Source of the DNA: Elusimicrobia bacterium GWA2_62_23
GTDB taxonomy: Bacteria > Elusimicrobiota > Elusimicrobia > Elusimicrobiales > UBA9959
Assembly: GCA_001799635.1 (NCBI GenBank)
Contig: MGTV01000008.1
Span: 126,879-190,878, forward strand
Direction: 5' to 3'
DNA length: 64,000 bases
Part shown: positions 4,710 to 32,953 of the stretch, piece after piece
How the letters are laid out: the number at the start of each line of letters is the position of its first letter
Position numbering within the stretch: the stretch's first letter is position 1
Made by a program: the position numbers and the translations under genes
Notes under the pieces: generated by a model
What the model saw: the letters and a program-made list of their open reading frames with translations, nothing else
Databases searched by the model: none
What the model was told of the DNA's origin: nothing

Positions 4710-5486
4710 ATGAAAGTAGTCATACTGTCCGGCGGCATGGGCACGCGCCTGAGCGAAGAAACTGATCTAAAACCCAAACCTATGGCCGAGATCGGCGAAA
4801 AGCCGATGCTCTGGCACATAATGAAGATCTATTCCCATTACGGGTTCAACGATTTTGTGCTCTGCCTTGGCTACAAGGGCTACATGATCAAGGAGTACTT
4901 CGCCAACTATTTCCTGCATCAGGCCGACGTGACCATAGACATGAAGAACAACAAGATGGAAGTCCATCACAAGAAGGCGGAGCCGTGGCGAGTAACCATG
5001 GTGGATACCGGGTTAAATACCATGACCGGAGGCCGCGTAAAAAGGATACAGAAATATGTGGGGAACGAACCTTTTATGCTTACCTACGGAGACGGGGTGG
5101 CGGATATCGATCTGAAAAAACTCGTGGCTTTCCATCGGCAGCACGGCGGTCACGCTACTATTACCGCAATTCAGCCGCTTGGCCGATTCGGAGCGATAGC
5201 CATGAAGAAGGACGGTTCGGTAAAGGCCTTTCAGGAGAAGCCCCAGGGTGACGGGGCTTGGATCAACGGCGGGTTCTTCGTGCTGGAGCCGCAGATCTTC
5301 AACTACATACAGGATGGGGACCCCACGATTTGGGAGCGAGAGCCTTTGGAGGGGTTGGCCAAGGACGGGCAACTCACCGCATATCAACATAAGGGGTTCT
5401 GGAAGTGTATGGATACCCTGCGGGACAAGACCGAGTTGGAAAACTTCTGGAAATCAGGCAAAGCCCCCTGGAAGGTTTGGAAATGA
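4710..5486 (+). CDS. rfbF: glucose-1-phosphate cytidylyltransferase
   Basis: 'MKVVILSGGMGTRLSEETDLKPKPMAEIGEKPMLWHIMKIYSHYGFNDFVLCLGYKGYMIKEYF'; adjacent to rfbG/rfbH. Confidence 0.97.
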   Translation: MKVVILSGGMGTRLSEETDLKPKPMAEIGEKPMLWHIMKIYSHYGFNDFVLCLGYKGYMIKEYFANYFLHQADVTIDMKNNKMEVHHKKAEPWRVTMVDTGLNTMTGGRVKRIQKYVGNEPFMLTYGDGVADIDLKKLVAFHRQHGGHATITAIQPLGRFGAIAMKKDGSVKAFQEKPQGDGAWINGGFFVLEPQIFNYIQDGDPTIWEREPLEGLAKDGQLTAYQHKGFWKCMDTLRDKTELENFWKSGKAPWKVWK

Positions 5487-6544
5487 ATTTCTGGCAGGAC
5501 CGGCGGGTGTTTATTACCGGGCATACCGGCTTTAAGGGCGCCTGGCTTACCATCTGGCTGGATTCGCTTGGAGCCAAGGTTACGGGCTATGCCCTTAAGC
5601 CGCCCACCCGGCCCAGCCTGTTCGAACTCTGCCGGCTGGACCGCCGCGTTAATTCCGTTATCTCCGACGTGCGCGACGGCGCCCGCCTTAAGAAGGCCAT
5701 GCGGGCCGCCCGCCCGGAAGTGGTCATTCACATGGCCGCCCAGCCGCTGGTGCGGGAGTCCTACCGGGCCCCGGCCGAAACTTACGAGACCAACGTGATG
5801 GGCGTGGTGAACGTGCTGGAAGCGGTGCGCGCCTGCCCCTCCGTGAAGGCCGTGGTGAACGTTACCACGGACAAGTGTTACGAGAACAAGGAACACGCCC
5901 GGGCCTTCCGCGAGGACGAGCCGATGGGCGGCTACGACCCTTACTCGTCGAGCAAGGCCTGCTCCGAGCTCGTTACCACTACCTACCGCAATTCTTTTTT
6001 TAACCCTAAGGACTATAAGGCTCACGGCGTGGCGCTGGCCAGCGCCCGCGCGGGCAATGTGATAGGCGGGGGGGATTGGGCGGCGGACCGCCTTGTTCCG
6101 GACCTGATACGCGCCGGGCTGAAGGGCGAGAAGGCCCTTATACGCAATCCGCGCGCCGTGCGCCCGTGGCAGCACGTGCTGGAGCCGCTGTCGGGCTACC
6201 TGCTGCTGGCGGAGAAACTTTATAAATACGGCCCCAAATTCGCGCAGGCGTGGAACTTCGGGCCTGACGCCGGGGACGCCAAGGACGTGGAGTGGATAGT
6301 GAAGCGTATGTTCGCGGCCTGGCCGGAGGCCCCCGGCTATGTTATGGACAAAGGCCGGAACCCGCACGAGGCGCATTACCTTAAACTGGATTCCTCCAAA
6401 GCCCGACGTGAGTTGGGCTGGGCGCCGCGCTGGCGCATAGACGGGGCCATAGACCGCATAATCTCCTGGACCCGCGCCTACGCCGCAGGCCAGGACATGC
6501 GCCGGGTCTGCCTGGAACAGATAAAGGACTATACCGACCTATGA
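5483..6544 (+). CDS. rfbG: CDP-glucose 4,6-dehydratase
   Basis: 'MNFWQDRRVFITGHTGFKGAWLTIWLDSLGAKVTGYAL...HMAAQPLVRESYRAPAETYETNVMGVVNVLEA'; 4-nt overlap with rfbF. Confidence 0.96.
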   Translation: MNFWQDRRVFITGHTGFKGAWLTIWLDSLGAKVTGYALKPPTRPSLFELCRLDRRVNSVISDVRDGARLKKAMRAARPEVVIHMAAQPLVRESYRAPAETYETNVMGVVNVLEAVRACPSVKAVVNVTTDKCYENKEHARAFREDEPMGGYDPYSSSKACSELVTTTYRNSFFNPKDYKAHGVALASARAGNVIGGGDWAADRLVPDLIRAGLKGEKALIRNPRAVRPWQHVLEPLSGYLLLAEKLYKYGPKFAQAWNFGPDAGDAKDVEWIVKRMFAAWPEAPGYVMDKGRNPHEAHYLKLDSSKARRELGWAPRWRIDGAIDRIISWTRAYAAGQDMRRVCLEQIKDYTDL

Positions 6545-7875
6545 CGAAGCAGGAACAGAAGGCCAGGGCCGAGATCTTTAGGAAAGTTTCCGCTTACTAC
6601 AAGCGGTTCCACGGGAAGCCGCCGTTCAAGGCGGGGGAAACTTTCGTGAATTACGGCGGGCGGGTTTACGACGAGAAAGAACTCGTTAACCTCACTGACA
6701 CGGCCCTGGATTTCTGGCTTACCTCGGGCCGCTACTGCGCGGCTTTCGAGAAGGAACTCGGGGCTTACCTGGGCGTTAAATACGTGTCCCTGGTGAATTC
6801 CGGTTCTTCGGCCAACCTCATAGCTTTCATGGCGCTCACATCTCCCAAGCTGGGCGCGCGGCAGATAAAGCCCGGCGACGAAGTTATAACCGTGGCCGCG
6901 GGTTTCCCTACCACCGTTACGCCCATAATCCAGTACGGCGCGGTGGCGGTGTTCGTGGATGTTCAACTGCCTTCCTACAACATAGACTGCTCCCGCCTGA
7001 AAGGCGCCCTTTCCAAAAAGACCAAGGCCGTAATGCTGGCTCACACGCTGGGCAATCCATTCGATATCAAGGCCGTAAAAGCCTTCTGCGCCAGACACAA
7101 GCTCTGGCTCATAGAGGACAACTGCGACGCGCTGGGCTCCAAATACGCCGGCAAGTTCACCGGCACGCACGGCGACATAGGCACGTCGAGCTTTTACCCG
7201 CCGCACCACATGACCATGGGCGAGGGCGGGGCGGTGTACACCAACGACCCGCTGCTCAAGCGCCTCATAGAATCTTTCCGCGACTGGGGCCGGGATTGCT
7301 GGTGCGCCTCGGGCAAGGACAATACCTGCCACAACCGCTTTACCCGGAAATACGGCGAACTGCCGCTCGGCTACGATCACAAATACGTCTATTCCCATTT
7401 CGGCTACAACCTGAAGGCCACCGAGATGCAGGCCGCCGTGGGGCTGGCGCAGCTCAAGAAATTCCCGGCTTTCGTGGAGGCCCGCAAAAAGAACTGGGCT
7501 TTCCTGCGCAAGGCGCTGGCCAAGTTCTCGGACAAGCTCGTTCTTCCCGAGCCAGCGCCGCATTCCTCTCCGAGCTGGTTCGGTTTCCTGGTGACCGTGC
7601 GCAAGAATGCCGGCTTTACCCGCGAGCAGCTGGTGAACCACCTGGAGAACAATAAGGTGCAGACGCGCATGCTCTTCGCCGGCAACCTCATAAAGCACCC
7701 CTGCTTCGACGGCATGCGCAAGTCCGGCAAGGGCTACCGCGTGAGCGGCCGGCTGGAGAATACCGACCGGATACTCAACAGCACTTTCTGGATTGGCGTC
7801 TATCCCGGCATGACCCCCGCTATGCTGCGCTACATGGCCGGCACGTTCGAGTCCTTTTTTCGCAAGACCACCTAG
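6541..7875 (+). CDS. rfbH: CDP-4-dehydro-6-deoxyglucose 3-dehydrase (E1, RfbH/DdhC-type)
   Basis: 'SSFYPPHHMTMGEGG' (His replaces PLP Lys) and an exact C-X57-C-X1-C-X7-C [2Fe-2S] motif ('NCDALG...RDCWCASGKDNTC'). Confidence 0.95.
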   Translation: MTKQEQKARAEIFRKVSAYYKRFHGKPPFKAGETFVNYGGRVYDEKELVNLTDTALDFWLTSGRYCAAFEKELGAYLGVKYVSLVNSGSSANLIAFMALTSPKLGARQIKPGDEVITVAAGFPTTVTPIIQYGAVAVFVDVQLPSYNIDCSRLKGALSKKTKAVMLAHTLGNPFDIKAVKAFCARHKLWLIEDNCDALGSKYAGKFTGTHGDIGTSSFYPPHHMTMGEGGAVYTNDPLLKRLIESFRDWGRDCWCASGKDNTCHNRFTRKYGELPLGYDHKYVYSHFGYNLKATEMQAAVGLAQLKKFPAFVEARKKNWAFLRKALAKFSDKLVLPEPAPHSSPSWFGFLVTVRKNAGFTREQLVNHLENNKVQTRMLFAGNLIKHPCFDGMRKSGKGYRVSGRLENTDRILNSTFWIGVYPGMTPAMLRYMAGTFESFFRKTT

Positions 7876-7962: not shown

Positions 7963-9072
7963 ATGAAGAAAGCTTTGATCACCGGTATTACTGGCCAGGA
8001 CGGTTCCTATCTGGCTGAACTCCTCTTAGGGAAAGGTTACGAAGTGCACGGCATACGGCGCCGCGCCGCCTCGGTGAACACCGCCCGCATAGCCAACGTG
8101 CTTAAGCACCCGCGCCTGAAGCTGCACTACGGCGACCTTACCGATTCCACTAACCTTACACGGCTCATAGCCGAGATAAAGCCAGAAGAGATATATAACC
8201 TGGGCGCGCAGAGCCACGTGGCCGTGAGCTTTGAAGAGCCGGAATACACGGCCGACTGCGACGGGCTGGGCACCATGCGCATCCTGGAAGCCGTCCGCCT
8301 GCTGGGCCTGCAGAAAAAGACACGCATTTACCAGGCCTCCACTTCCGAGCTGTTCGGTAAGGTGCAGGAGATCCCCCAGAGCGAAAAGACGCCGTTCTAT
8401 CCGCGCAGCCCCTACGGCGTGGCCAAGATGTACGCCTTCTGGATCACGGTGAATTACCGCGAATCCTACGGCATGTTCGCCAGCAACGGCATCCTCTTCA
8501 ACCACGAGAGCCCGCTGCGCGGCGACGAGTTCGTGACCCGCAAGATAACCCGCGCCATGGGCCGCATACTGCTGGGCCAGCAGGATTGCCTCTACATGGG
8601 CAACATGAACTCCCTGCGCGACTGGGGCCACGCCAAGGACTACGTGCGGGCCATGTGGCTGATCCTGCAGCAGAAGAAGTCCGAGGATTTCGTGATAGCC
8701 ACGGGCAAGCAGTACTCCGTGCGCAAATTCATAGAGCTCGCGGCCAAGGAACTCGGCATCTCCATCTCCTGGCAGGGCAAAGGCACCGCCGAGCGGGGCG
8801 TGGTGAAGGCCGTTAAGCCCCTGCCCGGCCTGGAGGGAGAGGTGAAGGTGAAGAAGGGCGACGTGATAGTGCGCGTGGACCCTAAGTTCTACCGCCCCGC
8901 CGAGGTGGAGACCCTGCTGGGCAACCCCGGCAAGAGCCGCCGCGTGCTGGGCTGGAAGCCCGAGATTTCCTTTGAAGGCCTGGTGAGCGAGATGGCGGCC
9001 AGCGACCTCAAGCTGGCGCTCAGCGAACACTGCCTGCGCAAAGCCGGCTACGGGGACATAAAGAGCTGCTGA
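7963..9072 (+). CDS. gmd: GDP-mannose 4,6-dehydratase
   Basis: '[43 protein letters not shown]...[57 protein letters not shown]'. Confidence 0.97.
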
Positions 9073-9091
9073 TGCTGGAGAGGAAAGAAGA

Positions 9092-9385
9092 ATGACTTTT
9101 TACGATATCAAGTCGCGGATCCTTCCCGTCCTTGTCCGACAGGGAGTTTTAAAAGCTTCATTGTTCGGATCTTTCGCCAGGAACGAAGCCGCCAGAAACA
9201 GCGATGTCGATATTCTCGTCAAGCTTGCTAAGAATAAAAGCCTGCTTGACCTTGTGGCGCTGCGCCTGGAATTGATGGAAAAACTGGGCAAGAAGGTTGA
9301 TGTCCTGACTTATGACTCCATAAATCCCTTGTTGAAAGACAGGATCATGAAGGAGCAAAAGCTCATATATGAAAAAAGAGCCTAA
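9092..9385 (+). CDS. MNT-type minimal nucleotidyltransferase (antitoxin-like)
   Basis: GS-X10-DxD motif 'GSFARNEAARNSDVDILV'; overlaps downstream HEPN gene. Confidence 0.9.
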   Translation: MTFYDIKSRILPVLVRQGVLKASLFGSFARNEAARNSDVDILVKLAKNKSLLDLVALRLELMEKLGKKVDVLTYDSINPLLKDRIMKEQKLIYEKRA

Positions 9386-9710
9386 GATCTTCATCGCTCA
9401 CATACTGGAAAGTATCAGCGAGATAGAGGGCTATACTTCCGGCATGACTTTAGCCGGGTTCCTCAAGTCAAAACTGGTGCAGGACGCCTCCATCCGGCGT
9501 CTGGAAATAATAGGAGAGGCGGTAAAGCGGATTCCCTCTGCCACGAGGGCGGAGGCAAAAGACATTCCTTGGAAGCAGATAGCGGGCCTGCGCGACATCC
9601 TAATACATGAGTATTTCGGGGTGGATATAAAACTGGTCTGGAAAGTTATACGGACTGACCTGCCGGAACTCAAGCGGAATATGTCAGCCTTGCTTAAGGT
9701 CGTTTCGTGA
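9369..9710 (+). CDS. HEPN/DUF86 family protein (HepT-like toxin)
   Basis: Rx4xH motif 'RDILIHEYFGVDIKLVWKVI'; overlaps MNT gene. Confidence 0.9.
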   Translation: MKKEPKIFIAHILESISEIEGYTSGMTLAGFLKSKLVQDASIRRLEIIGEAVKRIPSATRAEAKDIPWKQIAGLRDILIHEYFGVDIKLVWKVIRTDLPELKRNMSALLKVVS

Positions 9711-10726
9711 TGAAAACAGCGCTTATCACCGGGGTGCGCGGCCAGGATGGCGCGTACCTCAGCCAATTACTGCTCTCCAAGGGCTACGAGGTTTACGGCG
9801 CCGACCGCAGCGGCGATTCCGGCCTGTGGCGCTTTCGCGAGCTGGGCATAGAGGGGCGGGTAAAGGAAGTTTACCTGGACATCCTCGAGCTTTCCAACAT
9901 CATGGACGTGATGGAGAAGGTGCGCCCCGACGAGATCTATAACTTCGCGGCGCAGAGCTTCGTTCAGACCTCCTTCGAGCAGCCCATTCTTACCGCCGAG
10001 ATAAACGCCATAGGCGTGGCCCGCCTGCTGGAAGCGGCCCGCAAGGTATGCCCCGGGGCTAGGTTCTTCCAGGCCTCCACCGCCGAGCTGTTCGGCGGCA
10101 CGGGCGCGGCACCCAAGTCCGAAGGCACCGATTTCCATCCCAAAAGTCCGTACGCCGTGGCCAAGCTCTATGCCCATTGGCTCACGGTGAACTATCGCGA
10201 GGCCTACGGCCTGCACGCCAGTTGCGGCATCCTCTTCAACCACGAAAGCCCCATGCGCGGCGAGGAATTCCTCACGCGCAAGATCTCCCTGGCCGCCGCC
10301 CGCATAAAGAAAGGCGCGCAGGAGAAAGTGGCCGTGGGCAACCTGGAAGGCCGCCGCGACTGGGGCTACGCCGTGGAATACGTGGACGCCATGTGGCGCA
10401 TGCTGCAGCAGCCCAAGGCCGGCGACTACGTGCTGGCCACCGGCGAAACGCACACGGTGCGCGAGTTCATAGAAGCGGCTTTCGCCGCCGCCGGCCTGCC
10501 CCTGCGCTGGGAGGGGAAGGGCGTTGAAGAGCGCGGCGTGGACGCCGACGGAAAGACCAGAGTAGAAGTGTCGAAGGAATTTTACCGCCCCACCGAAGTG
10601 GAATGCCTGACCGGCGACGCGGCCAAAGCCCGCGCCGCCCTGGGCTGGAAGCCCGCGACCGGGTTCAAGGACCTGGCCGCGCTGATGGTGGCGGCGGATA
10701 TGAAGCGCCTGGAGGAAAAAAGATGA
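9710..10726 (+). CDS. GDP-mannose 4,6-dehydratase paralog
   Basis: 'MKTALITGVRGQDGAYLSQLLLSKGYEVYGADRSGDSGLWRFRELGI...[65 protein letters not shown]'; divergent from the first gmd. Confidence 0.88.
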   Translation: MKTALITGVRGQDGAYLSQLLLSKGYEVYGADRSGDSGLWRFRELGIEGRVKEVYLDILELSNIMDVMEKVRPDEIYNFAAQSFVQTSFEQPILTAEINAIGVARLLEAARKVCPGARFFQASTAELFGGTGAAPKSEGTDFHPKSPYAVAKLYAHWLTVNYREAYGLHASCGILFNHESPMRGEEFLTRKISLAAARIKKGAQEKVAVGNLEGRRDWGYAVEYVDAMWRMLQQPKAGDYVLATGETHTVREFIEAAFAAAGLPLRWEGKGVEERGVDADGKTRVEVSKEFYRPTEVECLTGDAAKARAALGWKPATGFKDLAALMVAADMKRLEEKR

Positions 10727-12132
10727 AAGCTGTTATTCTCGCCGGAGGTTCCGGTACCCGCCTGTGGCCCGTTTCCCGCTACGGCCTGCCCAAACAATTC
10801 ATAAAGCTCAACGGCGGCAAGTCCCTGCTGTGCCAGACGGTAGAACGCCTGGCCGCGGTGGTGCCGCTGCACGACATTTACGTGATCACCAACGAGGATT
10901 ACCGCTTCCACGTGCAGGCTGACCTGCGCTCGGTGTCCCCGACCATAGAGAACAACGTTATCCTGGAGCCCGTGGGCCGCAACACCGCCCCGGCCATAGC
11001 CCTGGTAATGAAGTACTGCCAGGAGAAGCTCAAGAGCCCTAAGGACGAGGTCATCTTCATCTGCCCGTCGGACCACATCATAGAGCCGGTGGAAAAGTTC
11101 GCCCGCTACGCCCGCCAGGCCGAGACCGCCGCCAAGGCCGGCAGCATAGTCACCTTCGGCATAAAGCCCAGCCGCCCCGAGACGGGCTACGGCTACATCA
11201 AGAAGGGCGGCAAGCCGGCCGCCGACGGCGGGGTGTTCAAGGTGGAGAAGTTCGCCGAGAAACCCGACGCCAAGACCGCCGAGAAGTACCTGGCCGACGG
11301 TAATTATTACTGGAATTCCGGCATGTTCGCCTTCACCATAGGCACCATGCTGGCCGAGTTCAAGGCGCACGCCGCCGAGATCAGCCGCAAAATGCCGCAG
11401 GCCTTCGCCAAAATGGTGGCCGACTTCAAGAGCATGCCGTCCATTTCCATAGACTACGCGGTCATGGAGAAATCCCGCAAGGCCGCGGTGCTGCCCATAG
11501 ACATCCTCTGGTCAGACGTTGGTTCCTGGGATTCCCTGCACGAGGTGATAGAGCCCGACGGGGACGGCAACGTGAAGGTGGGGGACGTGCTGGCCCTGGA
11601 TACCAAGAAGACCATAATCATGGGCGAGAAGCGCCTGATCTCCACCATAGGCCTCAAGGACCTCATCATCATAGACACCACCGACGCCCTGCTCATAGCC
11701 AGGCGCGGCCAGGCACAGCGCGTGAAGGAAGTGGTGGACATTCTCAAAGAGCGCAAGCGCAAGGAAGTGGTGGAGCACATGACCACCTACCGCCCCTGGG
11801 GCAGCTATACCATCCTGGAAGAGGGGCCGCGCTACAAGATAAAGCGCATAGTGGTGAAGCCAGGACACAAGCTCAGCCACCAGCTGCATTACCACCGCAG
11901 CGAGCACTGGATTATAGTGAAAGGCACCGCCAAGGTGACGCTTAACGGCAAGGCCTCCCTGGTGCACGAGAACGAGAGCACCTACGTGCCCAAGTCCACC
12001 GAGCACCGCCTGGAGAACCCCGGCAAGGTGCCGCTGGAGATGATCGAGGTGCAGAACGGCGAGTACGTGGGCGAGGACGACATAGTGCGGTTCAGCGACA
12101 TCTACGGCCGCGGCGAGAAGGCCAGGGTTTAA
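10723..12132 (+). CDS. manC: mannose-1-phosphate guanylyltransferase / mannose-6-phosphate isomerase
   Basis: 'MKAVILAGGSGTRLWPVSRYGLPKQFIKL...VILEPVGRNTAPAIAL...FICPSDHII' plus C-terminal cupin 'YRPWGSYTILEEGPRYKIKRIVVKPGHKLSHQLHYHRSEHWIIVKGTAKVTL'. Confidence 0.96.
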   Translation: MKAVILAGGSGTRLWPVSRYGLPKQFIKLNGGKSLLCQTVERLAAVVPLHDIYVITNEDYRFHVQADLRSVSPTIENNVILEPVGRNTAPAIALVMKYCQEKLKSPKDEVIFICPSDHIIEPVEKFARYARQAETAAKAGSIVTFGIKPSRPETGYGYIKKGGKPAADGGVFKVEKFAEKPDAKTAEKYLADGNYYWNSGMFAFTIGTMLAEFKAHAAEISRKMPQAFAKMVADFKSMPSISIDYAVMEKSRKAAVLPIDILWSDVGSWDSLHEVIEPDGDGNVKVGDVLALDTKKTIIMGEKRLISTIGLKDLIIIDTTDALLIARRGQAQRVKEVVDILKERKRKEVVEHMTTYRPWGSYTILEEGPRYKIKRIVVKPGHKLSHQLHYHRSEHWIIVKGTAKVTLNGKASLVHENESTYVPKSTEHRLENPGKVPLEMIEVQNGEYVGEDDIVRFSDIYGRGEKARV

Positions 12133-12158
12133 GCCGACATCACGGAGAGCTGGTTCTG

Positions 12159-13052
12159 ATGGCGAACAAGGAAAAGGTCCTTTTGACCGGCGGTAGCGGG
12201 TTTATCGGGAGGAATCTCCTGGAATCTTCGCTTTCCGTGAAATACGAGCTGCTGGCGCCCAGCCACGCCGACCTGGATCTGCTGGACGACGGGGCGGTGG
12301 CCGGGTATTTCTCACGCAATAAAATCGATTTTGTGGTGCACACCGCCTGCAAACCGGGACACCGCAACGCGAAGGACCCTAGCGCGTTGTTCTATTCCAA
12401 CACGCGGATGTTCTTTAACCTGGCCGCCAATTCGAAGCGTTATAGGCGGATGCTCGTGATAGGTTCCGGTGCGGTGTATGACATGCGCCATTACCGCCCG
12501 AAGATGAAAGAGGAATATTTCGGGGAACACATCCCGGAGGACGAGCACGGCTTTTCCAAATATGTCTGCGGCAGGCAGTTGGAGAGCGCGGCTAATATAG
12601 TGGACCTGCGGGTTTTCGGCATATTCGGTAAATACGAAGACTACGCCATACGCTTTATCTCCAACATGATCTGTAAAGCCCTCTTCGACCTGCCTCTGAC
12701 GATAAAGCAGAACCGCCGGTTTGATTATCTCAGGGCGGAGGACCTGTTTCCCGTTATAGAATTTTTCCTGGCCAATAAGCCGGCCCATAAGGCGTATAAC
12801 GTCACCCCGGACGACTCCATAGAACTTCTCGAGTTGGCCAGGCTGGTGCTGAAGATCTCCGGCAAGAGTCTGCCTATCGAGGTGGCGCAGCCGGGGCTGG
12901 GACTGGAATACAGCGGGGATAATTCCAGGCTCAGGGGGGAAGTGAAGGCGTTGGCTTTTACCCCCGTCGAGAGAGCCGTCAAGGAACTTTTTGACTGGTA
13001 TAGCGCCCGCAAGTCCGAACTGGACAAAGGACTCCTGCTGGCCGATAAATGA
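12159..13052 (+). CDS. NAD-dependent epimerase/reductase family protein (nucleotide-sugar reductase-like)
   Basis: 'KVLLTGGSGFIGRNLLES', 'ELLAPSHADLDLLD', 'VIGSGAVYDMRHYRPKMKEE', YxxxK-like 'FSKYVCGRQLE'; overlaps the TPP gene. Confidence 0.8.
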   Translation: MANKEKVLLTGGSGFIGRNLLESSLSVKYELLAPSHADLDLLDDGAVAGYFSRNKIDFVVHTACKPGHRNAKDPSALFYSNTRMFFNLAANSKRYRRMLVIGSGAVYDMRHYRPKMKEEYFGEHIPEDEHGFSKYVCGRQLESAANIVDLRVFGIFGKYEDYAIRFISNMICKALFDLPLTIKQNRRFDYLRAEDLFPVIEFFLANKPAHKAYNVTPDDSIELLELARLVLKISGKSLPIEVAQPGLGLEYSGDNSRLRGEVKALAFTPVERAVKELFDWYSARKSELDKGLLLADK

Positions 13053-14848
13053 GCGGGTTTATGATAAGACTTTCCGATTATGTGGTGAAGCGGCTGGAAG
13101 AACACGGCGTCAGGCACGTGTTCATGATCTCCGGCGGCGGGGCCATGCATCTCAACGACGCCGTGGGGAAAGCCCGGCGTATCAAGTATTTTTGCAACCA
13201 CCACGAGCAGGCATCCGCGATGGGCGCGGAAGGCTATTCCCGTGTTTCGGATAAGCTCGGCGTCACTATAGTTACCACCGGTCCTGGCGGGACTAACGCC
13301 CTTACCGGGGTAATAGGCCAGTGGCTGGATTCGGTTCCGGCACTTTACATTTCCGGCCAGGTCAAGTTCAAGACCACTACCGCGTCCTGCCCGCAATTGG
13401 GCCTCCGCCAGCTCGGAGATCAGGAGACCAATATCGTCGAAGTCGTAAGGCCGGTCACCAAGTTCGCGCAGATGCTGACCGATCCGTATCAGGTTAAAGA
13501 CCTGCTGGATAAAGCCGTTCACCTTGCGACGTCCGGCCGCCCCGGCCCCGTCTGGCTGGATATCCCTTTGGACGTGCAGGCGGCGTTGATCGACGAAGCC
13601 AAACTGACTTCCCGCAGGCCCGGGTTCCGCTCGCGCAGGCCCGGTCTCTCCGCTCAGGTTGAGAGAACGGTCAGGCTATTGCTCGCCGCGAAGAGGCCGG
13701 TGCTGCTCGCCGGCCACGGAATACGTTTGGCCGGCGCGCAGCAAGAACTGGAAAGACTGTCCGCCAGGTTAAAGGTCCCGGTACTCGCTACTTTCGGCGG
13801 ATTCGATCTGGTCCCCAACAGCAGCCCGTGGTTTTGCGGCCGCATCGGAACGCTGGGCACCCGCGGGGGCAATTTCTCCCTGCAGAATTCAGATCTGGTC
13901 ATCTCCCTCGGTTCCCGCAATAACATCCGGCAAGTCAGTTACGACTGGGCCAATTTCGCCAAAAGAGCGAAAAAAATAGTGGTGGATATAGATCCCGCCG
14001 AACTGACAAAGCCCACCATAAAGCCAGACCTGACGGTGAAGGCCGACGTGAAAGATTTCATGGCGGCCCTGTTGGCCGCGCTTCCCGAGAAGGGACCTGC
14101 GGATTTTTCGGGCTGGCTGGCCTGGTGCCGCGAGCGTAACCGCAGATACCCGGTGGTGCTGGAAGAGTACCGCAAACTTAAGACAAGGGTCAACCCGTAT
14201 CATTTCATGGAAACGCTCACGTCCATGCTGGGCCCGGATACACCGGTGGTGGCGGGGAACGGCTCGGCCTGCGTCTGCCTCTTTCAGGCAGGCGTCGTCC
14301 ACAGAGGCCAGCGGCTCTTCTGGAATTCCGGCTGCGCCTCCATGGGCTACGACCTGCCTGCCGCTATAGGGGCCTGTCTCGGCAGCGGCGGGAAAGACAC
14401 GGTCTGCCTGGCGGGTGACGGCAGTATCATGATGAATCTCCAGGAACTGGCCACCGTGGCGCATTACCGGCTGCCGCTGAAGATATTCGTGCTCAACAAT
14501 GCCGGCTACGGGTCCATCCGGCAGACGCAGGAGAATTTCTTCCAGGGCCGCTATGTCGCCTGCGACGCGGGTTCCGGGGTGGGCTTCCCTGATTTTGTCC
14601 GGGTCGGCGCGGCTTTCGGCTTCAGGACCGAGATAATAGACTCGGTGCGGACCATGAGCGCTAAACTCCGGAGGGTGCTGGCGTCGAAAGGCCCGGTCCT
14701 TTGCGATGTCCGCCTTCCGGCTGACCACAAGTTCATGCCGAAGCTTTCTTCCGAGAAGCGGCCGGACGGCAGTATGGTTTCAAAGCCGCTTGAGGATATG
14801 TGGCCTTTCCTCGACGGAGCGGAACTGCGCTCTAACATGATAGGCTGA
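13049..14848 (+). CDS. thiamine-pyrophosphate-dependent enzyme, acetolactate-synthase-like
   Basis: 'FCNHHEQASAMGAEGYSRVSDKLGVTIVTTGPGGTNALTGVIGQWLDSVPALYISGQV' and TPP motif 'LAGDGSIMMNLQELATVAHYRLPLKIFVLNNAGYGSIRQTQ'. Confidence 0.93.
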   Translation: MSGFMIRLSDYVVKRLEEHGVRHVFMISGGGAMHLNDAVGKARRIKYFCNHHEQASAMGAEGYSRVSDKLGVTIVTTGPGGTNALTGVIGQWLDSVPALYISGQVKFKTTTASCPQLGLRQLGDQETNIVEVVRPVTKFAQMLTDPYQVKDLLDKAVHLATSGRPGPVWLDIPLDVQAALIDEAKLTSRRPGFRSRRPGLSAQVERTVRLLLAAKRPVLLAGHGIRLAGAQQELERLSARLKVPVLATFGGFDLVPNSSPWFCGRIGTLGTRGGNFSLQNSDLVISLGSRNNIRQVSYDWANFAKRAKKIVVDIDPAELTKPTIKPDLTVKADVKDFMAALLAALPEKGPADFSGWLAWCRERNRRYPVVLEEYRKLKTRVNPYHFMETLTSMLGPDTPVVAGNGSACVCLFQAGVVHRGQRLFWNSGCASMGYDLPAAIGACLGSGGKDTVCLAGDGSIMMNLQELATVAHYRLPLKIFVLNNAGYGSIRQTQENFFQGRYVACDAGSGVGFPDFVRVGAAFGFRTEIIDSVRTMSAKLRRVLASKGPVLCDVRLPADHKFMPKLSSEKRPDGSMVSKPLEDMWPFLDGAELRSNMIG

Positions 14849-14883
14849 ACTCGGCGGCAAGAATCGAACAGGACGGAGATGCT

Positions 14884-15699
14884 ATGAATAATCTGGAAAG
14901 AAAGATGGTGGACGTGCTGCAGGACCTTAAGGAAAAGCATAATGTGGCCGGGATCAAGGCCGAGTTCGAGGCCGAAGGGACCCGTCTTGAGGAAGCGCTC
15001 CGGCTTAAAGAAGTAGTTACCCGGGCGGGTCTGGAACTGACCATAAAAGTGGGCGGGTGCGAGGCGCTAAAGGATATGTACGACGCCAGGTCTATCGGAG
15101 CCTGCCGGATAGTGGCCCCCATGATAGAGTCGCCGTACGCCCTGAAAAAATACCTGGGCGCGGCCAAGATAGTTTTTCCTAAAGAGGAGATACAGCAGAT
15201 CTCGCTTCTGGCCAACATAGAGACCATAATGGGCGTGCAGAATTTTGACGAGATGCTGAAGATAGACAGCATAAAGGAACTGGACGGCATAGTGCTCGGG
15301 CGCGTGGACATGACCGGCTCGCTAGGCATGACCCGCGAGGAGATAAATTCGGAACGGGTCTTCAATATAGCCAGGGACCTTTTCGTTAAAGCCAAGGCCG
15401 CCGGGCTGGAATGCGTTATTGGGGGGGGAGTGGCGAAGGAATCGCTGCCGTTCTTTAAGAACCTCCCCAAGGGGCTGCTGGACAGGTACGAGACCCGCAA
15501 GGTGATCTTTAAATGCCCCGAAGCTCTCTCCGACGACGCTCCGGACGGGATCTTAAAAGCCGTGGGGTTTGAACTGATGTGGCTCAAGAACAAACGGAAT
15601 TTTTACGGCGCTATCTACGCAGAAGACGAGCACCGCATCAACATGCTGGAAAAACGCTACAAGCGCCTGATAGAAGAGGCCGGGGTAAAGGGGTTATGA
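14884..15699 (+). CDS. HpcH/HpaI (citrate-lyase-like) family aldolase
   Basis: 'IVAPMIESPYALKKYLGA', 'LLANIETIMGVQNFDEML', 'LDGIVLGRVDMTGSLGM'. Confidence 0.8.
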   Translation: MNNLERKMVDVLQDLKEKHNVAGIKAEFEAEGTRLEEALRLKEVVTRAGLELTIKVGGCEALKDMYDARSIGACRIVAPMIESPYALKKYLGAAKIVFPKEEIQQISLLANIETIMGVQNFDEMLKIDSIKELDGIVLGRVDMTGSLGMTREEINSERVFNIARDLFVKAKAAGLECVIGGGVAKESLPFFKNLPKGLLDRYETRKVIFKCPEALSDDAPDGILKAVGFELMWLKNKRNFYGAIYAEDEHRINMLEKRYKRLIEEAGVKGL

Positions 15700-16364
15700 A
15701 GGGCCGCCGGGCTTTGATCACCGGGGCCTCACGGGGGATAGGACTTGCAACGGCGGAAGCTTTCCGGGCCCGGGGCGCGATGGTTATTGCCCCGTCTCAT
15801 TCCGAGTTGGACCTGGCCTCAGACGTCTCCATAGACAAGTACCTGGCGGGTCTTTCCGGAGGAGTCGACATTCTTGTGAACAACGCCGGCATAAATCCGC
15901 TCGGTTCAGCGGAAGAGTTTACTGATCCTGACCTGGAGGCCGTCTTGCAGGTGAACCTGAAGGCTCCTATGAGGCTTCTCCGGGGGCTTCTGCCGGCCAT
16001 GCGTGAAAGGGGTTACGGGCGGATAGTCAACGTCAGCTCCGTCTGGAGCTTCGTTTCCAAGCCTCGCCGGTTCGCCTATTCTTCGGTCAAGGCCGGAATT
16101 AACGGGATGACCCGCGCCGCGGCTGTGGAGTGCGCCAAGGCCGGTATTCTGGTCAATTCTGTGGCGCCCGGCTATGTTAATACCGAGCTCACCCGCAAGA
16201 ACAATTCGCCCGCGGAACTCGCGGCCATCTCCGCCGCTATCCCCGCCGGCCGTCTTGCGGAGCCTTCTGAAATAGCCGCGGTGATAGCCTTCCTGGCGTC
16301 TGAGCAGAACGCCTATATTACCGGGCAGACCATTGCCGTGGACGGAGGGTACACTTGCCTCTGA
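15696..16364 (+). CDS. SDR family oxidoreductase
   Basis: 'ALITGASRGIGLATAEAFRARGAMV', 'NNAG', 'YSSVKAGINGMTRAAAVECAKAGILVNSVAPGYVNTELT', 'YITGQTIAVDGGYT'. Confidence 0.95.
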   Translation: MKGRRALITGASRGIGLATAEAFRARGAMVIAPSHSELDLASDVSIDKYLAGLSGGVDILVNNAGINPLGSAEEFTDPDLEAVLQVNLKAPMRLLRGLLPAMRERGYGRIVNVSSVWSFVSKPRRFAYSSVKAGINGMTRAAAVECAKAGILVNSVAPGYVNTELTRKNNSPAELAAISAAIPAGRLAEPSEIAAVIAFLASEQNAYITGQTIAVDGGYTCL

Positions 16365-17443
16365 GCGATTTTACCGTTAAATCCCGGCTAAGGGATTATC
16401 GCGTCGCGTTCCAGGAACCCGGCGACTATTTGCCGCGGCTCGCCGCCGCGTCTGAAAGTTTTTTTGTGGTGGACGAGAACGTCTGGCGGCTGCACAAGGA
16501 CGGCGTTCTTAAACCTTTGTGCGGCCTGCCAGTCAGCGTGCTGCCCATAAGCGAAGACCTGAAGTCGCTGGAGTCCGTGCGCCTGCTTTACGACCGGATA
16601 ATAGAGAAAACTCCCAAAAAGAACATGCGCCTGGTCTCCATAGGCGGCGGTATCACCCAGGACATTACCGGCTTCGCGGCTTCCACGCTTTACCGCGGGG
16701 TGAACTGGACTTTTATCCCGACCACCCTGCTGGCCCAGGCGGACAGCTGCATAGGAGGGAAGACCTCCCTCAACTACAAAAACTATAAGAATCTCGTCGG
16801 GACTTTTTATCCGCCCTCCGAAGTCTGCATCTCTTCTTCTTTTCTGCCTACGCTCAAGGAGCCGGACTATCTGAGCGGACTGGGAGAGATGGCCAAGCTC
16901 GCGATCATAGGCGGGAGGGAACCGGCTGAGGCGTTCGCCGGCGCGGCCGAAAAACTCCTCAGTCGCGACCAGGCCGCCCTCGCCTCTTTTCTGCGCGAGG
17001 CTCTGGAAATAAAGAAAGGCTACATAGAGGAGGACGAATTTGATTCCGGCCGCCGCAACATCCTGAATTTCGGGCATTGTTTCGGGCACGCGCTGGAGTC
17101 CGCCACCGATTTTGCCGTGCCGCACGGCCTGGCCGTGGTTTACGGTATGCTCCTGGCCAATATTGTCGCCCGCCGCCGAGGCCTGCTCTCTCCTGCCTCC
17201 GAGGCGTTCATGCGCGGACGGATACTGCTGCCCGTGCTGGGCGGCCGCGCGTGGGACGCCCGGGCTGGGGCCGACGCTGTGGTGAGCAATATGCGCAAGG
17301 ACAAGAAGCGCACCGGCAACCAACTGGCGCTGGTGATGGCGCTGGACGATTTTAAGATGCTCCGCGTGAGCGATCTGGAGGAAAGCGAGGCGCGGACAGC
17401 CATTGAAGAATTGGCCGGGGAGGGCGGCGGGACGGCCGGATAA
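16355..17443 (+). CDS. 3-dehydroquinate-synthase-like sugar-phosphate cyclase (TTG start)
   Basis: 'VSIGGGITQDITGFAASTLYRGVNWTFIPTTLLAQADSCIGGKTSLNYKNYKNLVGTFYPP', 'LGEMAKLAIIGG', 'NFGHCFGHALES', 'PHGLAVVYGM', 'MRKDKKRTGNQLALVM'. Confidence 0.9.
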   Translation: MPLSDFTVKSRLRDYRVAFQEPGDYLPRLAAASESFFVVDENVWRLHKDGVLKPLCGLPVSVLPISEDLKSLESVRLLYDRIIEKTPKKNMRLVSIGGGITQDITGFAASTLYRGVNWTFIPTTLLAQADSCIGGKTSLNYKNYKNLVGTFYPPSEVCISSSFLPTLKEPDYLSGLGEMAKLAIIGGREPAEAFAGAAEKLLSRDQAALASFLREALEIKKGYIEEDEFDSGRRNILNFGHCFGHALESATDFAVPHGLAVVYGMLLANIVARRRGLLSPASEAFMRGRILLPVLGGRAWDARAGADAVVSNMRKDKKRTGNQLALVMALDDFKMLRVSDLEESEARTAIEELAGEGGGTAG

Positions 17444-17447
17444 ATTT

Positions 17448-18392
17448 ATGAAGAATGACAAATTGCGAGTTTTTTTGACCGGCGGGGCCGGTATGGTAGG
17501 AAGGAATATCCTTGAACACCCCGCAGCCAAAGAGTACGAGTTTTTCGCCCCGGACATTTCGGAGCTGGACCTTTTTAATTTTGAGGCGGTCAAGGCCTAC
17601 GTCGGGAAAGTCAGTCCTGACATCGTTATTCACGCGGCCGGCCGCGTGGGCGGCATACAGGCCAACATGGCGCACCCGGTGGCGTTCCTGCTGGAGAACC
17701 TGGACATGGGCCGCAATTTGGTGTGGGCGGCCCGCCAGTGCGGCGTGAAGAAGCTCATAAACCTGGGCAGCTCCTGCATGTACCCGCGCAACGCCGAGAA
17801 CCCTCTTAAAGAGGAGATGGTGCTGAAGGGGGAACTGGAACCCACTAACGAGGGCTACGCCATAGCCAAGGTGACGGTTTCCCGGCTGTGCTCCTATATT
17901 TCCAAGGAGACCCCGGAGTTCAGCTACAAGACGCTCATTCCCTGTAACCTCTACGGCCGCTGGGATAAGTTCTCTCCCGAGCATTCCCATATGATCCCCG
18001 CCGTGATACGTAAACTGCACGAGGCCAAGGTCAAAGGCCTTAAGACCATAGATATCTGGGGCGACGGTACCGCCCGCCGCGAGTTCCTGTACGCCGGCGA
18101 CGTGGCCGACTGCATACACCGCGCCGTCACGCATTTCGACACCATGCCCGAACTGATGAACGTCGGGCTGGGCGGTGACCACTCGGTGAACGACTATTAC
18201 CAGGCCGTGGCGGAAGTGGTGGGGTACAAGGGTTCCTTTACCCACGACCTCACCAAGCCCGCCGGGATGGCCCGCAAACTGGTGGACACCTCCCGTCTTC
18301 AGGCCTGGGGCTGGAAGGCTTCCACCTCCCTGAAGGATGGCATAGCGGCCGCTTACGATTTCTTTAAAACCAACTACGGAGACAACAAATGA
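17448..18392 (+). CDS. GDP-L-fucose synthase / GDP-colitose synthase-like epimerase-reductase
   Basis: 'VFLTGGAGMVGRNILEH', 'VIHAAGRVGGIQANMAHPVAFLLENLDMGRNLVWAARQCGVKKLINLGSSCMYPRNAENPLKEE', 'WGDGTARREFLYAGDVADCI'. Confidence 0.9.
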   Translation: MKNDKLRVFLTGGAGMVGRNILEHPAAKEYEFFAPDISELDLFNFEAVKAYVGKVSPDIVIHAAGRVGGIQANMAHPVAFLLENLDMGRNLVWAARQCGVKKLINLGSSCMYPRNAENPLKEEMVLKGELEPTNEGYAIAKVTVSRLCSYISKETPEFSYKTLIPCNLYGRWDKFSPEHSHMIPAVIRKLHEAKVKGLKTIDIWGDGTARREFLYAGDVADCIHRAVTHFDTMPELMNVGLGGDHSVNDYYQAVAEVVGYKGSFTHDLTKPAGMARKLVDTSRLQAWGWKASTSLKDGIAAAYDFFKTNYGDNK

Positions 18393-19564
18393 TACCCCTG
18401 ATGAAGAACACGTTCCTCAACGAGTACGAGACCAAGAAAGAGCTGGTGGATTTTATAATGAAGGCCAAGATCCTCAGCATGGGGGAGAAGTGCCTGGAAT
18501 TCGAGAAGGCCTTCGCCAAGGCGCAGGGCCGCAAGCACTGCATTCTTTTCAACAGCGGCGGCAGCGCCAACCTGGCCCTGCTGCAGGCCTTGAAGAACCT
18601 GGGCCGCCTCAAGGACGGCGACAAGGTGGGTTTCTCCGCCCTGACCTGGTCCACCAACGTCATGCCCATCCTGCAGCTCGGCATGAAGGCCGTGCCCGTG
18701 GACTGCGACCCGAAGACGCTCAATTCTATGTCCGCCAACCTGGCAGAAACCCTGAAGACGGAAAAACTCAGCGCCTTCTTCATCACCAACGCCCTCGGTT
18801 TAGCAGGCGACCTGGGCGAGATCCGCGAGCTGTGCAAAAAGAACGGCATTATCCTCATAGAAGACAACTGCGAATCCCTGGGCACGGTGCTGCCCGGCGG
18901 CCGCACCGGCAATTTCGGCCAAGCGTCCACTTTCTCCTTCTTCGTGGCGCATCACATGTCCACCATAGAGGGCGGCTGCTGCTGCACCGACGACGACGAG
19001 CTCGACGAGATGTTGCGCGTCACCCGGGCCAACGGCTGGGACCGCAACCTGCCTTTCGCGGCTCAGCGCCGCCTGCGCGAGAAATACGGCGTTAAGAGCG
19101 AGTTCGAGGCCAAGTACACTTTCTACGACCTGGGCTTCAACCTGCGCCCCACCGAGATCACCGGTTTCCTGGGCCTCACCCAGCTGCGCTACCTGGACGC
19201 TAACTGCGAGACCCGGCAGAAGAACTTCCGCCTGCTGGAGGCCGAGGTGAAGAACAATCCCGACCTGATCCCGCTGGAGACCGGCCACCTGTCCTTCGTT
19301 TCCAACTTTGCGTTCACCGTGGTCTGCAAGACCAAGGAACTGCGCAGCAAGTACATAGAGCAGTTCTCCGGAGACGGCGTGGAGATACGCCCCGTGATAG
19401 CCGGCAATATGCAGCGCCAGCCTTTCTATGCGAAATATGTCGGTAAAAAGTTCGATCTGAAAGGGGCGGAATTCCTGCACGAATGCGGTTTCTACTTCGG
19501 GAATTACCCGGAGCTGACCGACTCCGACCTGGACATGCTCAAGAGCTGCCTGCGGAAGTATTGA
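18389..19564 (+). CDS. ColD-like PLP-dependent GDP-4-keto-6-deoxymannose 3-dehydratase (DegT/DnrJ/EryC1 fold)
   Basis: PLP-Lys position occupied by His: 'STFSFFVAHHMSTIEGGCC'; lacks the E1 Cys cluster; sits with gmd/fcl-type genes. Confidence 0.85.
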   Translation: MIPLMKNTFLNEYETKKELVDFIMKAKILSMGEKCLEFEKAFAKAQGRKHCILFNSGGSANLALLQALKNLGRLKDGDKVGFSALTWSTNVMPILQLGMKAVPVDCDPKTLNSMSANLAETLKTEKLSAFFITNALGLAGDLGEIRELCKKNGIILIEDNCESLGTVLPGGRTGNFGQASTFSFFVAHHMSTIEGGCCCTDDDELDEMLRVTRANGWDRNLPFAAQRRLREKYGVKSEFEAKYTFYDLGFNLRPTEITGFLGLTQLRYLDANCETRQKNFRLLEAEVKNNPDLIPLETGHLSFVSNFAFTVVCKTKELRSKYIEQFSGDGVEIRPVIAGNMQRQPFYAKYVGKKFDLKGAEFLHECGFYFGNYPELTDSDLDMLKSCLRKY

Positions 19565-29161: not shown

Positions 29162-29917
29162 ATGCGCTATTTTATAGACCTTACTACCGTTTTGACCCAG
29201 AAAGAGCTGAAAGTCCGCTATAAGAACAGCTTTTTCGGCTATCTCTGGTCCATCGCCCACCCGCTCGCCTTCGCCGCGGTTTTCTTCGTGGCTTTCAAGG
29301 TGATCATGCGCGTGCAGATGGAAGACTATGTGCTTTTCCTAATCGCCGGCCTTTTCCCCTGGCAGTGGTTCTCCAATTCCGCGGGCATTTCCCCGCACAT
29401 CTTCCTGGGCAACGCTTCAATAATCAAGAAGGTCAATTTCGAGCGCAGCGCCGGGGTGCTGGCCGCCGTGCTCAACGAGACCATCCATTTCGCCGTTTCC
29501 ATCCCGGTCATAGTTTTCTTCGTCTACTACTACGGCCGGGGCGCGCACGCTTCCTGGCTGTACGGCATCCCGCTGCTGATGCTGGTGCAGTTCATGCTTA
29601 CCTGCGGGCTGGCGCTGGCGGTGGCGTCGGTGAACCTGTTCTTCAGGGACCTGGAGCGCATCGCCGTTATCACTGTCTCCATGCTGTTCTATTTCACGCC
29701 GGTCATCTACAGCCTTGATATGGTGCCGCCGCAGTACCGGGCGCTGGTGAACCTTAACCCGCTGGCGCCGCTCATGGCGAGCTGGCGCTCGCTGTTCATG
29801 TACGGCACGCTGGACGCCGGGCTGGTGGCGCTGAGCGCCGTGTACGCCGCGGCGGCCCTGGCCGGCGGCTACCTGGTGTACCGTAAACTTGTCTGGAAGT
29901 TCGCGGAGGTGCTATGA
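29162..29917 (+). CDS. wzm: ABC-2 type polysaccharide exporter permease (Wzm-like)
   Basis: 'RYKNSFFGYLWSIAHPLAFAAVFFVAFKVIMRVQMEDYVLFLIAGLFPWQWFSNS', 'LNPLAPLMASWRSLFM'; followed by ATPase. Confidence 0.9.
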   Translation: MRYFIDLTTVLTQKELKVRYKNSFFGYLWSIAHPLAFAAVFFVAFKVIMRVQMEDYVLFLIAGLFPWQWFSNSAGISPHIFLGNASIIKKVNFERSAGVLAAVLNETIHFAVSIPVIVFFVYYYGRGAHASWLYGIPLLMLVQFMLTCGLALAVASVNLFFRDLERIAVITVSMLFYFTPVIYSLDMVPPQYRALVNLNPLAPLMASWRSLFMYGTLDAGLVALSAVYAAAALAGGYLVYRKLVWKFAEVL

Positions 29918-30663
29918 GCTCCGCGCCTATAATCTTCTCGGGGGTGGGCAAGACCTACCCGATGTATCATCATTTCACCGGCGGCATAAAGAACTTCCTG
30001 TTCAACCTGCCCGAGGCGCTGCGGTCCCTGCGGTCTTCCCGGTTCGAGGCGCTGCGCGACGTGTCTTTCGAGGTGGCCAAGGGGGAGACTCTGGGCATAG
30101 TTGGCGGCAACGGGGCTGGCAAGAGCACGCTGCTGGGCCTGGCCGCCGGCGTGCTGCGCCCCACCACCGGCGCGGTAAAGGTCTCCGGCCGGATCTCGCC
30201 GCTCCTGGAACTCGGCGCCGGCTTTCACCGGGACCTGACCGGCCTGGAGAATATAATGCTCAACGGCGTGCTGCTGGGCCTCACCCGGGCCGAGGTCAAA
30301 GAACGCCTGGCTGCCATAGTTGAATTTTCCGAACTGGGCGCTTTCATAGACCAGCCGCTGCGCGTCTATTCCAACGGCATGGTGGCGCGCCTGGGCTTTT
30401 CCGTGGCCGCCCACCTGGACCCGGACGTGATGCTGATAGACGAGGTGCTGGCGGTGGGCGACGAGGAATTCCAGAAGAAGTGCCTGGAGAAGATGCGTGA
30501 GTTCAAGCGCAAGGGCGTGACCATGCTTTTTGTCAGCCATTCCATGCCCAGCGTAAAATTGATCTGCGACCGGGTAATCTGGATAGCCGACCGGCGCGTC
30601 CATATGTCAGGGGCCCCCGCGGAAGTGGTGCGGGCCTATGCCGGAGAAGGAGCGGGCCTTTAG
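29914..30663 (+). CDS. wzt: ABC polysaccharide exporter ATPase (Wzt-like, without C-terminal extension)
   Basis: 'GIVGGNGAGKSTLLGLAAGVLRPTTGAVKVSGRISPLLELGAGFHRDLTGLENI', 'DPDVMLIDEVLAVGDEEFQKKC'; ends shortly after the nucleotide-binding domain. Confidence 0.93.
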   Translation: MSSAPIIFSGVGKTYPMYHHFTGGIKNFLFNLPEALRSLRSSRFEALRDVSFEVAKGETLGIVGGNGAGKSTLLGLAAGVLRPTTGAVKVSGRISPLLELGAGFHRDLTGLENIMLNGVLLGLTRAEVKERLAAIVEFSELGAFIDQPLRVYSNGMVARLGFSVAAHLDPDVMLIDEVLAVGDEEFQKKCLEKMREFKRKGVTMLFVSHSMPSVKLICDRVIWIADRRVHMSGAPAEVVRAYAGEGAGL

Positions 30664-31666: not shown

Positions 31667-32953
31667 ATGAAGCAAAAGATACGCGCCGCCCTGTCAGACA
31701 GCTTGGTCCGCTCCAGCGGGCTGATGTTCTGCGCTTTCATGGCGTCCAGCGTGTTCAACTACCTCTTCCAGATAGTGCTGGGGCGCCTGCTGGGGCCCGT
31801 GCAGTACGGAGTGCTGAGCGGCCTGCTCTCCCTCCTGAGCGTGCTGGGCGTGCCGGTGGCCACGCTGCTCATGGTGGTGGCCGCCAAGTCCGCGGAATAT
31901 AAGGCCCGCAACGACGCCGCCGCCCTGTCAGGGCTTTTCTCCTCGGTCACCGCCGGGGTGCTCAAGGCCGGCGCGGCCGGCCTGGTGCTTTTCCTGGTCT
32001 TTTCCCCGGCCATAAAGAATTACCTGAACGCGCCAGAACTGCTGCCGGTAGTGCTGCTGGGACTGGCGGCCTTCGCCGCCCTGCCGGGCCCGGTGAACAC
32101 GGCCATGCTGCAGGGCGTGCAGGACTACAAGTGGCTGGCCATCAGCATGACGCTCTCCGGTCCCGCCCGCCTTGGCTTTTCCGCCCTGCCGGTGCTGGCC
32201 GGCCTGGGCGTGAGCGGGGCCGTGGGGGGGCTGATACTTACCGGCACTTTCGCCTGGCTGATCACGTACCTGCCGCTCCGGGCGCATATTGCCGCGCAGG
32301 CGGCGGCCCGCGGCGGGCACCTTACTTTTTCACGCGTCCTGCCGGTGTTCGTGGCCAATCTCTCTTTCACCATCATGACGCAGGCGGACATAGTGATGGT
32401 GAACCGCTACTTCCAGGCCGGCGAGGCCGGCATTTACGCCGCGGCCGCCATACTCGGCCGGGCCGTAATGTACATCCCCGGTTCCATAGTGCTGGCTATG
32501 TTTCCCATGGTGAGCGAGAGCCGCGCCCTGAACAAGTCCGGCGGGCACCTGCTGGTTAAATCGCTGTTCGCCACCGCGCTCTTCTCCGGCGGCGGGGCCG
32601 CCCTGTTCTACTTCCTGCCGGAGTGGACCATGGGCACCTTCTTCGGCGCCGGGTACCTGCCCGCCGCTCCCCTGCTGAAATATTTCGGCCTGGCCATGCT
32701 GCCCATGGCCTTCCTGCTGGTGTTCATGAACTACTTCGTGGCCAGGGAGAAAACAGTTTTCGCCTATATCATGGCCGCCTGCGCCGCCGCCGAGATAGCG
32801 GCCATGCACCTTTACCACGGCGCGCCGCTGGACATAGTCAAGGCGGTGTCCGCTGCCGGCCTGCTGGCGCTGGCTGGCGGCCTGGCCGCCCATAAACTTC
32901 GCCTCCCCGGCGCCGAGAACGCCGCGGAGGAACGTACCGGAGACATAAAATGA
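31667..32953 (+). CDS. oligosaccharide flippase family protein (second Wzx-like)
   Basis: '[35 protein letters not shown]', multi-pass, '[37 protein letters not shown]'. Confidence 0.88.

Follow-up and report, generated by a model that had tools for sequence, protein, structure and literature searches.

A five-gene cassette in a polysaccharide locus

The window analyzed here is a 64,000-nucleotide stretch of contig MGTV01000008.1 (positions 126,879 to 190,878, forward strand) from Elusimicrobia bacterium GWA2_62_23, in which a first-pass annotation made from the sequence alone had singled out five genes for carbon-carbon bond formation within an O-antigen locus. All five are intact, open genes that lie tightly packed on the plus strand between 12159 and 17443, with overlaps of 4-10 nt at every junction but one, TPP and ALD being separated by a 35-nt gap. 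In order, they encode a member of the NAD-dependent epimerase/dehydratase family (EPI, 12159..13052; PF01370, 82.8 bits), a predicted thiamine diphosphate (ThDP) carboligase (TPP, 13049..14848), a pyruvate aldolase of the HpcH/HpaI superfamily (ALD, 14884..15699), a short-chain reductase (SDR, 15696..16364; PF13561, 168 bits) and a sugar-phosphate cyclase of the dehydroquinate synthase (DHQS) fold, which begins at a TTG start codon (DHQ, 16355..17443). The Pfam assignments (Epimerase; TPP_enzyme N, M and C; HpcH_HpaI; SDR; DHQ_synthase N and DHQS_C) agree with this reading, and the original gene calls and families stand.

Relatives of these genes were collected from a scan of one genome per species, among the matches listed, together with a phylum search and annotation of neighborhoods. 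Among those matches, the same genes occur together in loci of Alphaproteobacteria, Actinomycetota, Verrucomicrobiota, Bacillota and Spirochaetota, showing the co-occurrence in other loci that the first reading had proposed as a check, and this recurrence across phyla rules out chance clustering of the five genes. Loci L039, L040 and L043 share the arrangement RfbF-G-H-EPI-ALD-SDR-DHQ-TPP, an alphaproteobacterial metagenome-assembled genome (L054) has RfbF-G-EPI-ALD-SDR-DHQ-TPP, and one version of the cassette is found in Rhizobium sp. AC27/96 (L080). The core of the cassette is RfbFGH, EPI, an aldolase and the TPP enzyme. Searches of plasmid collections yielded only distant AroB or AHAS (acetohydroxyacid synthase) matches and three aldolase relatives; a Novosphingobium plasmid carries RfbF-RfbG-ALD with no TPP enzyme on the same record.

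A YerE-like thiamine enzyme and its sugar supply

The catalytic glutamate (within NHHEQ) and the GDGS motif of TPP are both present in the window, as first described, and HHEQ and GDGS are found in nearly all cassette TPPs. The best solved relative is JanthE (8rph), a YerE-like enzyme (PMC12188165), with 421 bits over the full length compared with 280 bits for the best AHAS. The best NCBIfam model, acolac_lg, gave 375 bits and did not reach its cut-off of 538. In the genome, which is 91.8% complete, IlvC is represented by a mere 20-bit fragment match, and no other AHAS-like protein was found. This evidence supports TPP as a YerE-like enzyme and leads us to reject the alternative of a true acetolactate synthase that the earlier reading had also raised. 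A role in branched-chain amino acid synthesis is most unlikely, since the protein scores below the acetolactate synthase cut-off, is nearer to JanthE and has neither IlvC nor another AHAS alongside it. Locus L047 has two TPP enzymes, at 8263-10050 and 10978-12759, with 75% and 38% identity to the window TPP.

Upstream on the plus strand lie genes for an RfbF-like glucose-1-phosphate cytidylyltransferase (4710..5486; TIGR02623, 442 bits, cut-off 300), an RfbG-like CDP-glucose 4,6-dehydratase (5483..6544; TIGR02622, 504 bits, cut-off 278) and an RfbH-like C3-dehydrase leading to CDP-4-keto-3,6-dideoxyglucose (6541..7875; NF011936, 730 bits, cut-off 423). As each of these homologues exceeds its NCBIfam cut-off, supply of CDP-4-keto-3,6-dideoxyglucose is well supported. 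In the neighborhood tally, RfbF/G/H are encoded together with TPP in the window and in most relatives.

A second set of sugar genes, also on the plus strand, lies around the cassette: a ManC-like bifunctional GDP-mannose pyrophosphorylase/isomerase just outside it (10723..12132; PF00483 and PF01050), an Fcl/ColC-like GDP-sugar epimerase/reductase (17448..18392; NF047922, 313 bits, under the 500 cut-off) and a ColD/RfbH-like pyridoxal phosphate enzyme (18389..19564; PF01041, 213 bits; RfbH model, 221 bits, under the 423 cut-off). Together with Gmd-like genes, this flanking set suggests a separate GDP-3,6-dideoxyhexose (colitose-type) route. The acceptor of TPP had been proposed as either CDP- or GDP-linked, and of these the CDP-linked keto sugar is the probable one, since many cassettes adjoin RfbF and RfbG, with or without RfbH, and have no ManC or ColD nearby; the GDP-linked option probably falls away.

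EPI may act as a YerF-like reductase or as an epimerase. A motif alignment shows that His replaces the catalytic Tyr of its YxxxK motif in the window and in L039, L040, L043, L046, L049-L051 and L054, and that the Tyr is retained in L047, L048 and L052.

A cyclase clade separate from AroB

DHQ scored 387.5 bits with TIGR04425, just missing the cut-off of 400, and 251.9 bits with the aroB model TIGR01357, which also missed its cut-off (305). Because its own score falls just below 400 and clade mates in L043 (404.7 bits) and L054 (410.9 bits) exceed that threshold, we refer to DHQ as TIGR04425-like. A tree of 78 proteins has a branch, supported at 100/99, that separates all 40 cassette-type cyclases from E. 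coli AroB, the AroB-type protein encoded by a separate gene of this same genome, and a DOIS-annotated protein. The separate clade and the low aroB score rule out DHQ as AroB.

The residues of the AroB active site are kept in DHQ, including its metal ligands, as the first-pass annotation had noted (R114, D130, K136, K145, N146, E178, K181, K220, R234, N238, H241, H245, H257 and K317/K318). At R234 and N238 the DOIS-annotated protein has Gly and Glu, and DHQ, being AroB-like there, does not have a DOIS-type active site. Q102, W118, C132, L217 and F229 are signature residues of the DHQ clade. The structural model (pLDDT 90.5) has a DHQS, 6lla, as its top Foldseek match; ValA (4p53) ranks 34th among the fold matches, and the cyclase tree was built without an EEVS sequence.

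Most members of this clade are genetically tied to the thiamine enzyme. TPP is encoded in the locus of 26 of the 40, and the genomes of the two SDR-DHQ loci that lack it locally encode a cassette-type TPP at another site. Three of the remainder are on short contigs, and nine form a Gfo/Idh-associated subtype without nearby TPP, so that outside this subtype 28/31 members have TPP in the locus or genome. The Gfo/Idh subtype probably represents another, unexplored cyclitol route.

A swapped aldolase slot

ALD scores 40.6 bits with PF03328 (HpcH_HpaI; cut-off 25), and in sequence it resembles known HpcH/HpaI enzymes only weakly. Its AlphaFold2 model (pLDDT 92.3) has class II pyruvate aldolases as best structural matches, with AbHpaI-Zn-pyruvate (7et9) as the top Foldseek hit (E 6e-9). 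The metal-site motifs of HpaI are matched in the alignment by Glu113 and Asp142, both of which seven relatives share without exception. At the N-terminal motif, KAEFEAEG, the His of the HpaI His/Asp dyad is not evident at the level of sequence. One of the three aldolase relatives from the plasmid collections, in Ilyobacter (L003, 15001-15774; 39% identity), lies in a catabolic setting, amid aconitase, isocitrate dehydrogenase-type and 2-hydroxyacid dehydrogenase genes.

In related loci the position of ALD is taken by other enzymes: a NeuB-family enzyme in L047, NeuB with an FGGY kinase in L048-L051, and an HMGL-like protein in Lachnospiraceae and Treponema. On the TPP tree the state of this slot changes 8 times among close TPPs, as where L051 (NeuB) stands beside L043 (ALD). 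DHQ of the window and the NeuB-adjacent cyclase of L047 are close kin (70% identity). The presence of three unrelated families (HpcH/HpaI, NeuB and HMGL) that make carbon-carbon bonds with pyruvate or phosphoenolpyruvate (PEP) in one slot points to a 2-keto acid as their shared product, and suggests a 3-deoxy-2-keto acid that would serve as the TPP donor. ErwE provides a precedent, as it couples hydroxylated 2-oxo acids (4-hydroxy-2-oxo acids) to CDP-4-keto-3,6-dideoxyglucose (PMC12247030). Swapping of the slot beside close TPP orthologues also suggests that the aldolase acts first, making the donor. The order initially proposed, in which TPP transfers C2 before aldol extension, is probably wrong, with ALD and TPP forming a core of their own. 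DHQ and the FGGY kinase are adjacent wherever both occur (NeuB and HMGL loci), an arrangement consistent with a cyclase that relies on phosphate as its leaving group.

SDR-DHQ as an optional module

Neighborhoods of ALD relatives were tallied at 53 loci, 42 of which also have TPP. DHQ is present in 15 of the 53, a HAD phosphatase in 17 (identity confirmed by Pfam for example loci), neither in 21 and both in none; this lack of overlap has p values of 0.0009 for the 53 loci and 0.005 for the 42 with TPP, which ignore relatedness. The HAD phosphatase occupies the same slot as SDR-DHQ. A tree of TPP, used to check for repeated gain and loss, shows at least 9 changes in DHQ presence, and 31/42 of the ALD-TPP loci are without DHQ.

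The clearest comparison is between L039 (genome G264) and L208 (genome G174), where a 12-kb region differs by exactly SDR-DHQ (1.73 kb, with its ends in the final codons of ALD and the opening codons of TPP), with 92.8% and 92.6% identity on the module's two flanks and 97.5% identity between the two TPPs. SDR and DHQ are gained and lost together, which marks SDR as the partner of the cyclase. SDR-DHQ is an optional tailoring module. Near-identical TPPs with and without DHQ show that TPP is independent of SDR-DHQ, which most likely acts downstream, on the product of TPP.

Proposed pathway and alternative explanations

We propose that the product of the cassette is a C-branched higher sugar with a carbocyclic branch, a reading that we favor at a probability of roughly 55% and in which substrates and products are deduced from gene families and their context. 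A sugar both branched and carbocyclic is the most parsimonious interpretation, in line with the branched or carbocyclic higher sugar first suggested. RfbF/G/H, whose families are clear, would make CDP-4-keto-3,6-dideoxyglucose. ALD would then join pyruvate to a phosphorylated aldehyde, most simply erythrose-4-phosphate, giving a 3-deoxy-2-ulosonate 7-phosphate, a C7 acid like 3-deoxy-D-arabino-heptulosonate 7-phosphate (DAHP). A C4 aldehyde is favored because loss of CO2 from the C7 acid gives the six carbons that a cyclohexane requires. TPP would decarboxylate this acid and add the C6 acyl chain at C4 of the CDP-keto sugar, after which DHQ would carry out AroB-type chemistry on the branch, with the ketone joined to the sugar in place of the carboxylate, and NAD-assisted phosphate elimination and aldol closure would yield the cyclohexane. 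SDR would finally reduce the ring ketone. The expected residue is a 3,6-dideoxy-4-C-(tetrahydroxycyclohexyl)hexose, C12H22O8, 294.13 Da as the free sugar. Without the module the chain would stay open, to be dephosphorylated by HAD where present, and relatives with HAD in the SDR-DHQ slot probably make this open-chain form. That the cyclase clade acts once the branch is attached to a nucleotide sugar, closing the open chain to a cyclohexane, which would give an unreported class of C-C-linked carbocycle-hexoses in bacterial surface polysaccharides, is a more tentative proposal to which we give slightly less than even odds.

Several observations weigh against this reading. The Gfo/Idh subtype of the DHQ clade (L034-L038, L059-L061 and L066) has no nearby YerE-like TPP and mostly has SDR with Gfo/Idh-type and 2-hydroxyacid dehydrogenases, some loci also with a TIGR04326 (O_ant_LIC13510) protein, which implies that the clade can cyclize something not carried on a CDP-sugar. 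DHQ and HAD do occur together in two Lachnospiraceae loci (L063 and L067), the 21/53 ALD loci noted above have neither, and L044 and L047 have NeuB with no adjacent kinase. The identity of the aldehyde as C4 comes only from the ring-size logic. We know of no biochemistry or sugar structure for any carrier, and, to our knowledge, no sugar-phosphate cyclase acts on a nucleotide-linked substrate.

The strongest competing explanation, which we consider unlikely, is that the locus makes two products: ALD and TPP, with or without EPI, would form an open-chain branched CDP-sugar of the erwiniose or caryophyllose kind, and DHQ and SDR would convert a common sugar phosphate to a free cyclitol, to be used as a residue or substituent in its own right. 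The Gfo/Idh subtype, where DHQ-SDR has no YerE-like TPP nearby, fits such a division, as does the majority of ALD-TPP loci without DHQ. It is harder to reconcile with the company of TPP in 28/31 of the other clade members (the remaining three being on short contigs), or with SDR-DHQ filling the HAD slot and never sharing an ALD locus with HAD. In addition, a cyclitol made separately would require a gene for its activation, and no conserved one was seen in these loci.

Improbable, in our view, is a quinate-like acid that decorates the polysaccharide, in which ALD would make a DAHP-like acid from pyruvate and erythrose-4-phosphate, DHQ would cyclize it and SDR would reduce it, leaving TPP to use pyruvate in an unrelated reaction. 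The retained AroB catalytic set of DHQ and the frequent adjacency of ALD, SDR and DHQ are consistent with this route. However, ALD-TPP without DHQ is common (31/42), which makes TPP the most likely consumer of the ALD product, and DHQ belongs to a clade outside AroB with its own signature residues, in a genome that already has an AroB-type gene.

Still less probable is the C2-first order, in which TPP adds a pyruvate-derived C2 unit and ALD lengthens the acetyl branch before cyclization and reduction, even though YerE takes pyruvate as donor for this very CDP-keto sugar (PMC12247030). Aldolase-slot swapping beside close TPP orthologues better fits a common soluble 2-keto acid. Moreover, the nucleophile in the HpcH, NeuB and HMGL-aldolase families is pyruvate or PEP rather than a methyl ketone borne on a sugar. 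Finally, primary metabolism, with AroB, an authentic acetolactate synthase and an aldolase of central metabolism lying in a polysaccharide locus by happenstance, is hardly credible: the generic annotation of each gene and the rank of acolac_lg as best NCBIfam model for TPP would allow it, but TPP and DHQ fall under the acetolactate synthase and aroB cut-offs, no IlvC beyond a fragment match is found in the genome, the AroB-type gene is separate and the sugar context is conserved.

Relation to known systems

The carbocyclic-branch pathway proposed above shares with the yersiniose A pathway (RfbF/G/H, YerE and YerF) the supply of CDP-4-keto-3,6-dideoxyglucose, a YerE-like ThDP enzyme and a setting in a surface-polysaccharide locus. 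Yersiniose A needs a mere C2 unit from pyruvate, whereas the window adds a pyruvate aldolase, a DHQS-fold cyclase and SDR. ErwE (erwiniose), MMAR_2332 (caryophyllose) and MygE (gastriose) are YerE-like ThDP enzymes like the window TPP, and ErwE and MMAR_2332 favor longer hydroxylated 2-oxo-acid donors; the review that covers them describes no cyclase step (PMC12247030), unlike the window, which has SDR-DHQ beside an aldolase and a ThDP enzyme. C-branched CDP-sugar pathways are already known, and there is a real chance that the product class here is new.

Known sugar phosphate cyclases comprise AroB/DHQS, EEVS, EVS, DDGS, DOIS, aminoDHQS and EboD (PMC5133447). DHQ has their fold and the AroB catalytic set, and probably the same phosphate-elimination and aldol chemistry, but differs in its separate clade, its signature residues and its genetic tie to a C-branching enzyme. 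Its best-scoring family, TIGR04425, is described as an AroB-related putative sugar phosphate phospholyase (cyclizing), with function unproven. Among the open-licence papers searched, none describes a sugar-phosphate cyclase linked to a branching enzyme of the YerE type, and searches for the combination led no further than the ThDP review.

Bradyrhizose and caryose are carbocyclic monosaccharides of lipopolysaccharide, the ring of caryose being five-membered. The genes for bradyrhizose synthesis are described as unknown (PMC4743980); the Bradyrhizobium paper names a gdh cluster, with no mention in its text of a cyclase, an aldolase or a thiamine enzyme. High-scoring TIGR04425 matches were present in only 4/398 genomes of the order of the Rhizobium carrier. 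We make no link to bradyrhizose on this evidence.

C-C branches and carbocycles are rare features among bacterial sugars, and the cassette offers a concrete candidate route to them, with a likely physiological role for a cyclase clade labelled only as a putative phospholyase. Genomes that naturally have or lack the proposed ring-forming step allow the idea to be tested directly, and the ThDP and cyclase enzymes could serve in the making of tertiary alcohols and carbasugars.

Neighboring genes

GtrA-like and/or GtrB-like genes adjoin the cassette in L039, L040, L042, L043, L045, L046, L080 and L208, and the cassette sugar may accordingly be transferred via a polyprenyl phosphate carrier. Within the sugar operon of the window, a candidate MNT nucleotidyltransferase and HEPN-type pair, toxin-antitoxin-like, lies between two Gmd-like genes (9092-9710). 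Further downstream, two B12-binding radical S-adenosylmethionine enzymes (33902-35359 and 38435-39859) are encoded amid glycosyltransferases, and the same region has a second flippase (31667-32953) and an ABC-2 exporter (29162-30663); these downstream genes possibly belong to a second polysaccharide system.

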